Assembly: GCF_028369105.1 (NCBI RefSeq)
Contig: NZ_JAQNDO010000001.1
Location: 12,370,501-12,434,500, forward strand
Direction: 5' to 3'
Source of the DNA: Polyangium mundeleinium
GTDB taxonomy: Bacteria; Myxococcota_A; Polyangia; Polyangiales; Polyangiaceae
DNA length: 64,000 nt
Under the pieces are notes generated by a model, which was given only the letters and a program-made list of their open reading frames with translations, was not told the origin of the DNA and did no database searches. Every line of letters begins with the position of its first letter. The stretch's first letter is position 1. A program made the position numbers and the translations under genes. This document shows, piece after piece, positions 2,691 to 7,327 of the stretch.

Positions 2691-2951
2691 GTCCGCGTTT
2701 TTCGGGTTTCACGCCCCGAACGCGACGCGCCGCACCGCGGTTTGGGCCTGTTGCAACGCTTCGTCCCCCGAAAAACAGCGAATTCAGGCGACATCTGCTT
2801 CGCTCCCACCACGAGTTCGGCTATAGGCGAACCAGTGGCGCACGCTCGGGTCGTCTGCCGACCACGCGTTTGCCAGGCCCGCACTCGCGGCCAACCCCAG
2901 GTCTCTCGTGACCCGGCGACATCCGTTGTCGGTGAAGTAGGAGCTTTTCGG

Positions 2952-3977
<1,026 letters not shown>

Positions 3978-4093: not shown

Positions 4094-5104
4094 ATGACGC
4101 TCCGCGCGGGGGTGCTCGCCGTCGTGCTCGGGCTCGCCTCCGTGGCCTCCGCCGAGCCAGTCGCACCGGACGGGCGCGCGAGGGCCAAGGCCGCGTACGA
4201 GCAAGCCGAACGAGCGGCCGCCGAGCTCAGGTTCGGCGAGGCGCTCGCGGGGTACGAGGCGGTCCTGTCGATCGATCCCTCCGCGCCATTCGCCAGGATG
4301 GCCCGCACACGCGCCGCCGATCTTCGTGCCCACGCCGAAGGGGACTTCGCGCCCCTCGCGCGCCTCGAAGCCGTGCGCAGGACGCCGAGCCCGGACCGCG
4401 CCACGATCGAGGCGCTCGCGCGTGACGCCGCGACCTTCCCGGCCGGCCGCGTGCGCGCCGAGGCACGTCTCATCGTGGCCGAGGCGTTCTGGCACCGCTT
4501 CGAAGAACCGAGCCGAGCCGCAGCCGCGTTCGACGAGGCGATCGAGGATCCCGCGGCCGACAAGCTCACGCGCGCGCTCGCGCTGAACGAGCTCGCGGCG
4601 CTCGAGCGCGAACGGGGCGATCTCGCGGCCGCCTACCGCGCTGTGTCGCAGTATCCGGACCTCGTTCCGAGCTTGTACGCCGAGATCGGGCGGCTCGTGC
4701 GTCGCGCCAGGATCGCGCGGGTCGCGTCGGGCGTGCTCGGCGCGCTCGGTCTCATCGGCGCCCTGTCGATCGTGCGGCTCTTCCGGAAGCCGGGCCATGA
4801 TCCCGAGGCGATCGTGCGCGCCGTGATCCGCCCATCGTCCATGGCCTTCGCGCTTTACCTCGGGGGCGCGGCGGCGATCCTGGTCCGGCATCACGGCGAG
4901 GGCGACGTGCGGCCGTTCTTGTGGCTCGGGTTCGGCGTGCTCGGCGTGGACATCGTGGCGCGGGCGTGGCGGCTCGGGTCGCGTGACGGGCGCACGGCCG
5001 CGCGGATCGGTCGCGCGGTCGTGTGCATGATCGGCGTGCTCGCCGCGGCGTTCCTGTCGCTCGAAGCCGCAAATGCGGGCTACCTGGAGAGCTTCGGGCT
5101 GTGA
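4094..5104 (+). CDS. Exported TPR-type membrane protein, first gene of the radical SAM operon
   Basis: The protein has 336 residues. MTLRAGVLAVVLGLASVASAEP is a signal peptide with an ASA-E cleavage site. Alpha-helical repeats follow (YEQAERAAAELRFGEALAGYEAVL, then a second cluster around WHRFEEPSRAAAAFDEAI), then about four hydrophobic segments in the last 130 residues. A GTG at 4091 directly before the ATG is an alternative start. The stop overlaps the next start by four bases, so translation of the two is coupled. No enzymatic motif is seen. As the first gene of the radical SAM operon it may be a periplasmic scaffold or transporter partner; that is inference from position only. Confidence 0.8.
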   Translation: MTLRAGVLAVVLGLASVASAEPVAPDGRARAKAAYEQAERAAAELRFGEALAGYEAVLSIDPSAPFARMARTRAADLRAHAEGDFAPLARLEAVRRTPSPDRATIEALARDAATFPAGRVRAEARLIVAEAFWHRFEEPSRAAAAFDEAIEDPAADKLTRALALNELAALERERGDLAAAYRAVSQYPDLVPSLYAEIGRLVRRARIARVASGVLGALGLIGALSIVRLFRKPGHDPEAIVRAVIRPSSMAFALYLGGAAAILVRHHGEGDVRPFLWLGFGVLGVDIVARAWRLGSRDGRTAARIGRAVVCMIGVLAAAFLSLEAANAGYLESFGL

Positions 5105-5397
5105 GAAACGAGCAGGACGACAGGGACGAGGCGCGCCGTGATCCGGAGGGCGCCGTGGAGATCGGGCCGGGGCCGATCGCGGCGGACGAGATCCTCGTGG
5201 TGCGCAGGGGCCCGGGGGCGAACTGCTCGTCGGTGGGGAGCGCGCTCGATCTCTTGTTCCTCTCGGCCGTGGCCGCGGGCGTCGTGATGGCGGGGATCGC
5301 GGCGGCGTTCGGGGGCGGCGCGGAGGAGCGCAAGGACAAGGGACGCGGCGAGCGCGACGGAAAGCGCGACGAGGGAGGCGATGCGGGCGCGCGTTGA
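5101..5397 (+). CDS. 98-residue single-TM peptide next to a radical SAM enzyme (candidate precursor or partner)
   Basis: The GTG at 5101 overlaps the stop of the preceding gene (GTGA). The product has a charged N-terminus, a central motif RRGPGANCSSVGSALD with its only cysteine at residue 42, one hydrophobic segment (about 51-70), a GGG hinge and a very charged Lys/Arg/Asp/Glu tail. Its 3' end overlaps the start of the radical SAM/SPASM gene by 17 bases. Small peptides coded directly before SPASM enzymes are often the modified substrate, so this is a candidate precursor. A membrane-tethered helper is the alternative. I do not recognise a named family. Confidence 0.7.
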   Translation: MRNEQDDRDEARRDPEGAVEIGPGPIAADEILVVRRGPGANCSSVGSALDLLFLSAVAAGVVMAGIAAAFGGGAEERKDKGRGERDGKRDEGGDAGAR

Positions 5398-6571
5398 ACC
5401 GTTCGGCGCGTGGGTGCGGCTCGACGACGGCACGCTCGTGGCGATCGATCGCGGCGCGGCCGAGCGGCTCGGGCTCGCGGGCGGCGCGGTCTGGCAAGAC
5501 GCGGAGACGACGCGCCGAGCGAGGCCCCTCGAAGCGCACGTGGCGGTCACGTCGCGATGCGGGGCCGGATGCAAGGGGTGTTACCTCGACGCGCGACCCG
5601 ACGGCGAGAGCCCGCCGTTCGAGGTGATCACGGCGCGGCTCTCGGCGCTCGCGACGGCGGGCGTGTTCACGGTGGCGTTCGGGGGCGGCGAGCCGCTCGC
5701 GAGGCCCGATCTCGGCGAGCTCGGCCACGCCGCGCGGTGCCTCGGGCTCGTCCCCGTGCTCACCACGAGCGGCATCGGCATGACGAGCGAGCGGGCGCAG
5801 GAGCTTTCGAGCTTCGCGCAGGTGAACGTGAGCTACGACGGCGAGGGCGCGGCGTACGGCGAGGTGCGCGGCTGGGAAGGCGCGCGGGTCGCGGAGCGGG
5901 CGATGCGGCTGCTCGCGGAGGCAGGCGTGCCGTTCGGGATCAACGTGGTGCTCACGCGCAAGACGTTCGACACGCTCCCCGAGACGGCACGGCGGGCGGC
6001 GTCGCTCGGCGCGCGCGAGCTTCAACTGCTGCGGTACAAACCCGCTGGACGCGCGGCAGACGTCTCGTACCTGGCGACGCGGCTCTCGCCGGCGCAGGTC
6101 GACGCGCTCGGGCCCACGCTCGAAGCGCTCTTCGCCGCGACGAACCTTGCGATCCGTGTCGACTGCTCGCTCGTGCCGCTGCTCTCGGGCCACGTGCGGG
6201 ACGCGGCGGCGCTCGCGCGGTTCGGCGTGCTCGGCTGCGAGGCGGGGCGTTACCTCGCTGCCGTGCGGATCGACGGAGCGCTCGCGCCGTGCAGCTTCGC
6301 GCCGGCCGCAGACGCACGGGCCGAGGACGCGTGGCAAGGCCGCGCGCGCGCGGCGTGGACAACGGACATGACGCTCGAAGCCTGGCGCGCGCCGCACGAC
6401 GCCGAGCCTTGCCGGTCCTGCGCGATCCGCTCGGTGTGCCGGGGCGGATGCCGTGTCGTCGCGACACACCTCGACGGCGCGCTCGGCCCGGATCCAGAGT
6501 GCCCGCGTGTCCGCGCCCATCACGCGCGAGCGCAAAGCGCAGAGGAGCGCACGCGTGCCGGCGACGCGTAG
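5381..6571 (+). CDS. Radical SAM/SPASM domain enzyme, probable peptide-modifying
   Basis: The enzyme has 396 residues. Cys60, Cys64 and Cys67 form the CX3CX2C motif (CGAGCKGCY) that binds the [4Fe-4S] cluster cleaving S-adenosylmethionine, and FGGGEPL (100-106) is the SAM-binding GGE loop. The C-terminal SPASM domain is complete: Cys286, Cys304, Cys344, Cys347, Cys353, Cys357 and Cys374, in the spacing that ligates two auxiliary clusters. SPASM enzymes typically act on ribosomal peptides, forming thioether or C-C crosslinks or epimers. The first 50 residues (VEPFGAWVRLDDGTLV...) form an extra small domain that could bind a leader peptide. GAGGGAGG just before the ATG is a strong ribosome site. 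It lies between a 98-residue peptide gene and two small membrane proteins, overlapping both neighbours. Confidence 0.92.
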   Translation: MRARVEPFGAWVRLDDGTLVAIDRGAAERLGLAGGAVWQDAETTRRARPLEAHVAVTSRCGAGCKGCYLDARPDGESPPFEVITARLSALATAGVFTVAFGGGEPLARPDLGELGHAARCLGLVPVLTTSGIGMTSERAQELSSFAQVNVSYDGEGAAYGEVRGWEGARVAERAMRLLAEAGVPFGINVVLTRKTFDTLPETARRAASLGARELQLLRYKPAGRAADVSYLATRLSPAQVDALGPTLEALFAATNLAIRVDCSLVPLLSGHVRDAAALARFGVLGCEAGRYLAAVRIDGALAPCSFAPAADARAEDAWQGRARAAWTTDMTLEAWRAPHDAEPCRSCAIRSVCRGGCRVVATHLDGALGPDPECPRVRAHHARAQSAEERTRAGDA

Positions 6572-6863
6572 ACGACGCTTCGTGGCGCTCGCGTTCGGCT
6601 TCGCGGGGGCGGCGCTCGCCTACGTCGTGCTTCGGCTGATCGAGTCCGTGTGGTTCCCCGAGCCCGACCCGGCGATCGTCGTCTGGTCGGATCGCAGCCG
6701 CTTCGTGTGGCGCGCGCTCCTCGCGGCGTATACCGGCGGCGCGGCGGTCTTCGGCGGCCACGCGCTCGCCTCCCGATCGATCGAGGCCGCCGCCGTCTGG
6801 CTCGGGCGCATCGCCTTCGCCGCCGCGATCGCGCTGGCCCTCCAGGGAGCGCTCGTCCCGTGA
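6555..6863 (+). CDS. Small membrane protein of the radical SAM operon
   Basis: The GTG at 6555 is chosen because GAGGAG lies about eight bases upstream and the frame before it is covered by the radical SAM gene, with which it overlaps by 17 bases. The 102-residue product starts with a basic patch (ATRRRRF) and has three hydrophobic segments (FVALAFGFAGAALAYVVL, LLAAYTGGAAVFGG, IAFAAAIALALQGALV). The topology suggests an inner-membrane protein. No family is recognised. Its stop overlaps the start of the next gene (GTGA). Confidence 0.7.
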   Translation: MPATRRRRFVALAFGFAGAALAYVVLRLIESVWFPEPDPAIVVWSDRSRFVWRALLAAYTGGAAVFGGHALASRSIEAAAVWLGRIAFAAAIALALQGALVP

Positions 6864-7327
6864 CGTCCGAGCTCCTCCGCCGCGTCGCGCTCGTCCACGG
6901 CGTCCTCGCCTGGATCTCGACCCTCGCCCTCGTCGCGCTCGCCGTCGCCCTCGTACGCCTCCGCAAGGACGCTCCCCTCGCGCGCTGGATCCGCCTCGCG
7001 TCCGCGGCGACGACCTCCCTCGTCGTGGCCTCCTTCGCGACGGGCGTTTGGCTCGATCTCCCGTACCGCGTCCACCTCCGCCAGCGCCTCTTCCTCGCCT
7101 CGCGCGCGCTCGGCTGGCTCTTCGAGCGCAAGCTGCACCTCTCCTTCGGCGCGCTCGTCTTTGCCTGCCTCGCGCTCCTGGCCCTCCTCGCGACCGACCC
7201 CGAGTGCCACGACGCCCCCTCGCGCGCCCTGCGCCGCGCCTCGCGCCTCGGCTACGTGGCCGCTGCGATCTTCGGGCTCGCCGCGTGCGTGATCGGCACC
7301 CTCGTGGCCATGCGCGCCCGGTTCTGA
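6860..7327 (+). CDS. Four-helix membrane protein, last gene of the radical SAM operon
   Basis: The GTG at 6860 overlaps the previous stop by four bases. The 155-residue product has four hydrophobic segments (about residues 5-30, 45-60, 85-105 and 130-150) with short loops, including GVWLDLPYRVHLRQRLFLAS between the second and third. This is reminiscent of small four-helix haem- or quinone-associated membrane proteins, but no haem-ligand pair can be assigned with confidence. It ends directly against the convergent DUF155 gene with no terminator visible between them. Confidence 0.7.
   Translation: MTSELLRRVALVHGVLAWISTLALVALAVALVRLRKDAPLARWIRLASAATTSLVVASFATGVWLDLPYRVHLRQRLFLASRALGWLFERKLHLSFGALVFACLALLALLATDPECHDAPSRALRRASRLGYVAAAIFGLAACVIGTLVAMRARF

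Follow-up and report, generated by a model that had tools for sequence, protein, structure and literature searches.

Radical S-adenosylmethionine (SAM) enzymes that carry a SPASM domain and have known targets act mostly on peptides that are secreted, on precursors of cofactors or on sulfatases, the target motif of the anaerobic sulfatase maturases being [C/S]-x-[P/A]-x-R. Here we describe a SPASM enzyme encoded directly after a 98-residue small membrane protein, hereafter the peptide, in a 64,000 nucleotide stretch of the genome of the soil myxobacterium Polyangium mundeleinium (contig NZ_JAQNDO010000001.1, positions 12,370,501 to 12,434,500; hereafter the window). The two are found in the same genomes across a sample of the Myxococcota, and we hold with moderate confidence that the enzyme is the dedicated maturase of this small membrane protein, the product of which stays in a membrane assembly.

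The described enzymes that most resemble this one in fold include SuiB, the streptide enzyme, and the sactisynthase CteB. The linker of SuiB donates a ligand that completes auxiliary cluster I (Aux I), and the Aux I of CteB has an open site (both PMC6231123). Strictly defined, the recognition element (RRE) of ribosomally synthesised and post-translationally modified peptide (RiPP) systems has three strands and then three helices, and a leader peptide usually joins it as an additional strand, the known exception being SuiB (PMC12710340). A literature search that left subscription journals mostly uncovered found no paper describing a SPASM enzyme paired with a membrane peptide of this kind, and a search by motif strings likewise found none. 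No described class was matched by profiles or in the literature; the original prediction, made from the letters of the window alone, had also recognised none.

Results

Co-occurrence of peptide and enzyme

The sample comprised 282 Myxococcota genomes, the peptide having first been sought in 96 genomes of the order. A profile of the enzyme (A3) separated the subfamily of the window enzyme, whose members score at least 319 bits, from the next radical SAM proteins, at no more than 170.5 bits, and placed the subfamily in 57 of the 282 genomes. The first peptide profile (A1, from a 38-locus set), made regardless of the enzyme, matched in 48 genomes, every one of which has the enzyme. A wider peptide profile (A4) matched in 61; six weak matches (G224, G108, G203, G013, G234 and G196; E 6.7e-4 to 0.0094), in genomes none of which has an enzyme at 319 bits or more, were not counted, leaving 55 (E<=8.2e-9).

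Both genes are therefore counted in 55 genomes, the peptide alone in none and the enzyme alone in two (G176 and G227), where it is cut at a contig start, at the place where the peptide would lie. Copy numbers are one of each in 53 of the 55, and two of each in G097 and in the window's own genome (G000). Among the 22 listed genomes of the window's family (f1), eight have both and 14 neither. Profiles A3 and A4 were built partly from genomes that were afterwards searched; the enzymes outside the building set of A3 (G133, G158, G166, G319, G096, G321 and both of G097) all come from genomes with the peptide, the peptides of G158 and G319 and the second peptide of G097 being unlinked and picked up only by A4. 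The hypergeometric value of the co-occurrence, 1e-56, ignores relatedness and is not to be read literally. The peptide and the SPASM subfamily belong together, as the original prediction had supposed when proposing a profile search: in the genomes examined the peptide was never found without the enzyme.

The peptide family

As had been read from the letters, the 98-residue protein carries the motif RRGPGANCSSVGSALD, a single cysteine and a single hydrophobic stretch. Its family shares a common plan, in which a strand-like V-[RHK]-x-G is followed by the core N-[C/S]-S-[S/A]-x-G and then by a single hydrophobic helix, the best 21-residue segment of 36 free relatives having a mean Kyte-Doolittle value of 2.05. 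At E <= 0.01, relatives turned up in 34 of the 96 genomes searched in the order, of which at least two (G094 and G035) are judged spurious. Across six genomes of the Polyangium group, the ratio of non-synonymous to synonymous polymorphism (pN/pS) is 0.09 for the motif and helix of the peptide, 0.36 for its tails and 0.22 for the enzyme; the core of the peptide is under strong purifying selection. The low pN/pS and the relatives across the order identify the 98-residue protein as a real coding gene, and on the same grounds a chance open reading frame or a non-coding overlap is ruled out.

The core G-x-x-A-[NS]-C-S-S-x-G-S-x-x-[DE]-x-L-F is present in 38 loci of the order, representing 37 different sequences, all of which have the cysteine. 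The regular expression behind this set demands the first part of the motif, and no member was lost through it; three partial matches outside the motif (L047, L048 and L050) and ten short loci re-covered by longer ones were left out of the first set. In the wider alignment (A4) two forms can be told apart, one with Cys (ANCSS, PNCSS, ANCSA) and one with Ser (NPNSSS), and full invariance is limited to G, S and G, with N coming close; the fourth position after the Cys or Ser is G in 50 of 50 aligned rows. The window peptide matched no Pfam or NCBIfam family. Similarly, a scan of 50 peptide cores gave no credible match in either, and a known family was rejected for the peptide, since the sole matches at E<=0.1 were single-member ones to unrelated families (at best E 0.0021 in NCBIfam and 0.0077 in Pfam) and were taken as chance.

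Free, fused and unlinked peptides

Three ARRANGEMENTS of the peptide are found: free and next to the enzyme, the state seen in the window; fused to the N-terminus of the enzyme; and unlinked. In the fused form the reading frame of the enzyme itself has the motif and helix at its N-terminal end, followed by a linker. In a quick tree of 63 enzymes, made without bootstrap, fusions occupy two clades and additionally L028, the close relative of which (L023) is free, such that the fused and free states switch at least three times. The cysteine of the motif is replaced by serine only once, in a deep clade of 12 of the 63 enzymes, four of which are in the alignment and keep all eight C-terminal cysteines; because the replacement extends to this whole deep clade, an obligate cysteine chemistry is unlikely. 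Two loci (L014 and L016) were left out of the enzyme alignments and the tree, and five (L005, L031, L032, L034 and L053) out of A3.

A further fused copy, L053 in G047, has lost most of its SPASM module and retains the core cluster motif. It was therefore left out of alignment A2 and of the tree, and is possibly decaying.

At seven of 62 enzyme loci there is no peptide in the stretch fetched. One of these (G041) is explained by contig edges, the peptide lying at the edge of one contig and the P0004 gene (Table 1) at that of another. Absence of the small protein beside orthologous enzymes, which the original prediction had named as an outcome that would tell against it, does happen at the other six (G074, G019, G158, G319 and one each of G097 and G000), but the peptide gene is elsewhere in each of these genomes. 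For instance, the operon of G074 reads P0002-enzyme-P0004-P0005, the peptide gene having gone and 10 bases separating the P0002 and enzyme matches, and the sole peptide match lies behind a large gene of a different contig.

The window's genome itself contains a second enzyme (L105; G000:C1:3303227-3304324, 477.7 bits), adjoined by a partial P0005-like match and with no peptide nearby, and a second peptide (L035; G000:C1:11330752-11330898) behind a gene for a 1253-residue TPR/DUF3857/transglutaminase-like protein; although 8 Mb apart, these may be partners. Four further loci (L124 of G158, L125 of G319, L107 and L109) concern unlinked peptides of the Ser type, which lie directly behind a DctP solute-binding gene (PF03480), with a fused DctQ-DctM gene near L124. 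In these genomes, the enzyme adjoins a Kinase-PPPase (PF03618) gene.

The SPASM enzyme

The window enzyme scores 48 bits against the Pfam Radical_SAM model (cut-off 29.5), 40.5 against the SPASM model TIGR04085 (cut-off 27) and 14.3, under the cut-off of 21.5, against the Pfam SPASM model. Its core, C60-x3-C64-x2-C67, and the pattern of its C-terminal cysteines are those of a SPASM radical SAM protein. The original description as a complete SPASM enzyme with a CX3CX2C motif thus stands; the seven C-terminal cysteines that it listed become eight conserved after the core (C262, 286, 304, 344, 347, 353, 357 and 374), the first of which sits in the linker and the other seven in the SPASM module. 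Judged from the alignment, eight cysteines are probably enough for two fully ligated auxiliary clusters and, because C262 aligns with the linker cysteine of SuiB, where the linker ligand completes Aux I, both clusters are probably fully ligated.

Among curated models, the best for the window enzyme is that of the mycofactocin enzyme MftC (TIGR03962; 106.7 bits, cut-off 265), followed by PqqE (TIGR02109; 92.7 bits, cut-off 381.35) and the GeoRSP SPASM protein (TIGR04303; 91.1 bits, cut-off 400). SPASM models of heme pathways are close behind, at 82.8 bits for NirJ2, 68.7 for NirJ and 65.8 for heme b synthase. The enzyme does not reach the cut-off of any equivalog model in the best 25 of 53. The four named loci found with the window enzyme are all from Polyangium and 92-94% identical, and a contig scan with this enzyme alone gave matches only in Polyangium. 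The plasmid matches among those listed (2 of 2 records; best 40 of 248) have 27-33% identity and are annotated as MftC, PqqE or other radical SAM proteins, or are unannotated.

Predicted structure and topology

A structure was modelled for one fused relative, L096 (75 aligned rows), in place of the window protein, with a mean predicted local distance difference test (pLDDT) of 91. Its first ten residues, containing a strand at 3-8 (ILAVRR), have a mean pLDDT of 85, and residues 11-30 one of 56-58; a predicted helix at 22-43 matches the hydrophobic helix of the peptide. Ahead of the barrel is a three-stranded sheet (strands 55-60, 63-69 and 72-77), and the next strand (103-109) follows with no helix between. 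As the helices that should follow the strands in a strict RRE are absent from the L096 model, this N-terminal module would be RRE-like at most.

The top fold match of the model is SuiB (Z 28.1, root-mean-square deviation 3.1, 351 aligned), the alignment beginning at residue 49 of the model and residue 2 of SuiB. SkfB (Z 27.4) is tied with it, the gap being less than 1, and the further best matches are the sactisynthase of PDB 5why (Z 25.5), which we take to be CteB, PqqE, the anaerobic sulfatase maturase anSME and ChlB. Small-molecule radical SAM enzymes are also among the matches, a tetraether lipid synthase appearing lower in the list.

Free peptides have a basic N-terminal and an acidic C-terminal flank, charges that suggest a motif inside and a tail outside the cytosol. 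In the fused forms, flank charges do not settle the topology.

Neighbouring genes

Gene calls bear out the five overlapping genes of the original prediction, with junctions of 4, 17, 17 and 4 bases in order, the first being shared by the end of the P0002-family gene and the start of the peptide gene (Table 1).

Table 1. Features of the operon in the window
Feature	Position	Strand	Basis
TPR-like protein (P0002 family), exported, with membrane helices at its C-terminus, 336 aa	4094..5104	+	Gene call; homologues near enzyme
Small membrane protein (peptide), 98 aa	5101..5397	+	Gene call; profile relatives
Predicted docking strand of peptide, I-L-V-V-R-R	5191..5208	+	Conserved pattern [VI]-L-x-V-[RHK]; strand in fused relative's model
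Core motif of peptide, G-P-G-A-N-C-S-S-V-G-S	5209..5241	+	Family conservation; selection
Hydrophobic helix directly after core motif	5245..5310	+	Kyte-Doolittle over relatives; helix in fused model
Radical SAM/SPASM enzyme, own subfamily, 396 aa	5381..6571	+	Pfam/NCBIfam profiles; alignment; tree
CX3CX2C radical SAM cluster motif (C60, C64, C67)	5558..5581	+	Invariant in 51/51 aligned sequences
Linker Cys C262 and SPASM module C286-C374, eight Cys	6164..6502	+	Alignment; C262 aligned with SuiB linker-region Cys
Small membrane protein (P0004 family), 102 aa	6555..6863	+	Gene call; homologues near enzyme
Four-helix membrane protein (P0005 family), 155 aa	6860..7327	+	Alignment; predicted structure

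Over the 62 enzyme loci, some of which are shortened by contig ends, the peptide is a neighbour in 55, P0004 in 44, P0002 in 39 and P0005 in 31, the peptide count admitting matches to E 1e-3 and hence a few extra weak ones (e.g. G088, G207, G168 and G115). Less frequent are a purple acid phosphatase (PF16656 with PF00149; 17 loci), a Porin_O_P protein (PF07396; 12 loci) and an exported SRPBCC protein (11 loci). The order seen most often is P0002, peptide, enzyme, P0004, P0005. In seven genomes (G030, G036, G049, G054, G059, G068 and G083) the run is instead porin, phosphatase, P0002, peptide, P0004, P0005, with the enzyme at its edge; it is on the opposite strand in five of these, and on the same strand in G049, where it comes first, and G083, where it comes last. 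That the system is membrane-bound and has membrane partners of its own, as originally proposed, is supported.

The P0002 protein of the window has no Pfam match at E<=1, its TPR label deriving from a sub-threshold YfiO match and weak TPR matches of relatives. P0005 was aligned over 22 sequences (A6, from which L038, L040 and L101 were left out), in which H13, G62, Y69, R70, L77, F88, E89, K91, H93 and G146 are invariant, giving the signature Y69-R70, F88-E89-x-K91-x-H93. Its model consists of four helices (pLDDT 91.8), and fold searches returned generic four-helix matches only, with a best Foldseek E of 0.16 and a best Z by VIA of 13.3, which may reflect just a common helical-bundle arrangement. 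Five of the 22 members show a weak, sub-threshold resemblance to COX15/CtaA in Pfam; P0005 might be a known cytochrome or oxidase subunit, but a fold cannot be safely assigned.

A crude calling of neighbouring genes yielded 495 genes in 66 of 71 loci, with 18 families in at least four loci. No recurrent peptidase or ABC exporter was seen among those of the 18 families run against Pfam, a crude survey of locus neighbours only, and an MFS transporter family (PF07690) lies near the enzyme in four of the 71 loci (L086, L089, L095 and L135). All 11 exported SRPBCC (Polyketide_cyc2) genes belong to family f38, upstream of a fused enzyme (L086, L087, L089, L095, L097, L098, L113, L119-L121 and L123), where they take the place at which other lineages carry the phosphatase and porin; five of these loci also share a rhodanese gene. 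Immediately ahead of the operon in the window (2742-3977) is a gene for a protein that is rich in Cys, apparently exported and equipped with a long low-complexity tail of the GGMGGAGG type, and further upstream (443-711) is a tandem array of a 43-base unit in 6.3 copies with 84% matches.

Discussion

Maturation of the peptide would begin with docking of its V-R-x-G strand on the enzyme, which would then act at the membrane face and alter the core, N-[C/S]-S-[S/A]-x-G. As Cys and Ser alternate at the core, the chemistry is probably one without need for a thiol. Rather than being released as a natural product, the modified peptide would stay in the membrane, assembled with the TPR protein and two polytopic membrane proteins or, in other lineages, with the purple acid phosphatase and the Porin_O_P outer-membrane protein; in fused lineages it would be the tethered N-terminus of the enzyme itself.

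This proposal builds on the composition of the gene set, the joint occurrence of peptide and enzyme, their fused and unlinked pairs, the switch between Cys and Ser, the purifying selection on the core and the likeness of the enzyme to peptide maturases. The main argument for a peptide that works in a membrane assembly, with the enzyme as its maturase, is an order seen in a minority of loci: where the enzyme is at the edge of the run, as it is in seven genomes, the peptide stays with the membrane genes, as expected of a component of the product. The persistence of unlinked peptides, as in G074, also supports maturation, as do the first ten residues of the L096 model, which are well predicted despite the low confidence of the next twenty. 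Finally, the original prediction would have been weakened by an enzyme grouping with SPASM proteins that act on proteins or small molecules; the best sequence models of the present enzyme (MftC, PqqE and GeoRSP) and most of the best matches of the predicted fold (SuiB, SkfB and CteB among them) are instead peptide-acting, such that by resemblance it leans towards these, with heme-pathway SPASM proteins not far behind.

Several points weigh against maturation. The modification itself is a prediction from sequence and models. In most of the 62 loci the enzyme is inside the run, directly after the peptide, which confines the edge argument to seven genomes, and in two of these it is the last (G083) or first (G049) gene on the strand of the run. 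Only three residues of the peptide are fully invariant family-wide, and covariation between peptide and enzyme over 38 pairs distributed the top 30 column pairs over the enzyme domains about as expected, with no domain enriched. Heme-pathway models score not far under those of peptide maturases, small-molecule enzymes are present in the list of matches to the predicted fold, and co-occurrence and fusion are equally predicted by a role of the peptide as anchor or subunit. The fused forms, furthermore, require a cytosolic enzyme, and a helix crossing the membrane once would leave the motif on the outer side, where the active site could not reach it. There are three ways out of this conflict: a helix that does not cross the membrane in these forms, a motif altered ahead of insertion, or a motif that is no substrate.

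That last option belongs to the alternative in which the peptide is an obligate membrane-anchor or activator subunit and the enzyme acts on another membrane target, be it a lipid, a quinone, heme or a partner protein. We consider this doubtful, even though it would accommodate the matched copy numbers of enzyme and peptide in all 55 genomes, the repeated fusion to the N-terminus of the enzyme, the hydrophobic helix, the tolerance of Cys or Ser and the enzyme gene directly following that of the peptide in most loci. The heme-pathway models close behind the best ones and the tetraether lipid synthase lower in the fold list are also in keeping with such targets, and the two invariant histidines of P0005, with its weak sub-threshold likeness to COX15/CtaA in five of 22 members, indicate that a redox membrane partner may exist. 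An anchor would not, however, be expected to remain inside the run of membrane genes when the enzyme is at its edge, let alone on the other strand as in five genomes, or to persist unlinked behind unrelated exported-protein genes (TPR/DUF3857/transglutaminase-like and DctP), and the strict motif between strand and helix exceeds what an anchor needs.

A thioether-forming enzyme of the sactipeptide or ranthipeptide type, using the conserved cysteine, is highly improbable. The donor is there in the window peptide and its clade, as in all 37 different sequences of the order, but is not family-wide, Ser replacing it in the clade of 12 tree enzymes, of which the four aligned members keep all eight enzyme cysteines; the cysteines of the enzyme apparently suffice for both auxiliary clusters, unlike the open Aux I of CteB (PMC6231123). 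Least probable of all is a classical RiPP, cut and exported as an antibiotic, signal or diffusible cofactor: a short gene-encoded peptide is indeed paired with a tailoring enzyme for which mycofactocin and pyrroloquinoline quinone maturases are the closest curated models, the strand is leader-like, the motif core-like and an MFS gene occurs at four loci, but the crude neighbour survey revealed no recurrent peptidase or ABC exporter, the hydrophobic helix belongs to the conserved core, the supposed precursor is in many genomes permanently the enzyme's own N-terminus, a whole clade has exchanged Cys for Ser and the 50 peptide cores have no credible Pfam or NCBIfam match, for which reasons the membrane-tethered RiPP of the original prediction, in the usual sense of the term, is not upheld.

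The linkage evidence is better than was originally thought, and the system proposed here differs in kind from the RiPP first envisaged. Maturation of the peptide in the membrane would point to an undescribed way to chemically finish a membrane protein, as opposed to an ordinary secreted peptide antibiotic. More tentatively, the enzyme might give a small integral membrane protein a permanent post-translational feature, acting in trans or, when fused, on its own N-terminus, and the segment so changed might be a working part (for redox chemistry or binding) in a membrane complex of the Myxococcota that is tied to the handling of envelope phosphoesters or solutes. On that reading it would be a maturase repeatedly fused to and split from its substrate, with a target residue that is interchangeably Cys or Ser. 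A dedicated SPASM partner of a small membrane protein, kept across the phylum sample, would widen the roles of SPASM enzymes. Thanks to the natural fusions the question can be tested directly, on one polypeptide to express, reconstitute and weigh, and the company of the purple acid phosphatase and Porin_O_P genes provides a first physiological handle.

Comparison with known systems

The locus differs from each described system that it resembles. The motif [C/S]-S-[S/A]-x-G does not conform to the target motif of the anaerobic sulfatase maturases. The GeoRSP SPASM protein, although the third-best model for the window enzyme and the best for its Ser-type relative L102, gives 66-112 bits over four scanned enzymes, its cut-off being 400. 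The sactisynthases SkfB (PDB 6efn) and CteB (PDB 5why) share the three-module plan of the predicted structure, but their thioether chemistry needs a cysteine where a whole clade here has serine. PqqE, which works with PqqA and PqqD, is the nearest solved relative by sequence profile (PDB 6c8v; E 4.7e-35), although the window enzyme falls well short of the cut-off of its model. The pair MftC and MftA is likewise a SPASM enzyme encoded with a small peptide and provides the best curated model; the window enzyme is nonetheless far under its cut-off, and the peptide here has a hydrophobic helix, is often fused to the enzyme and has no credible model. Lastly, while SuiB, which acts on SuiA in streptide synthesis (PDB 5v1s and 5v1t), is only 17-18% identical, and the model here has three strands without the following helices of a strict RRE, it is the top fold match from the N-terminal module on, with the cysteines of the linker regions aligned.

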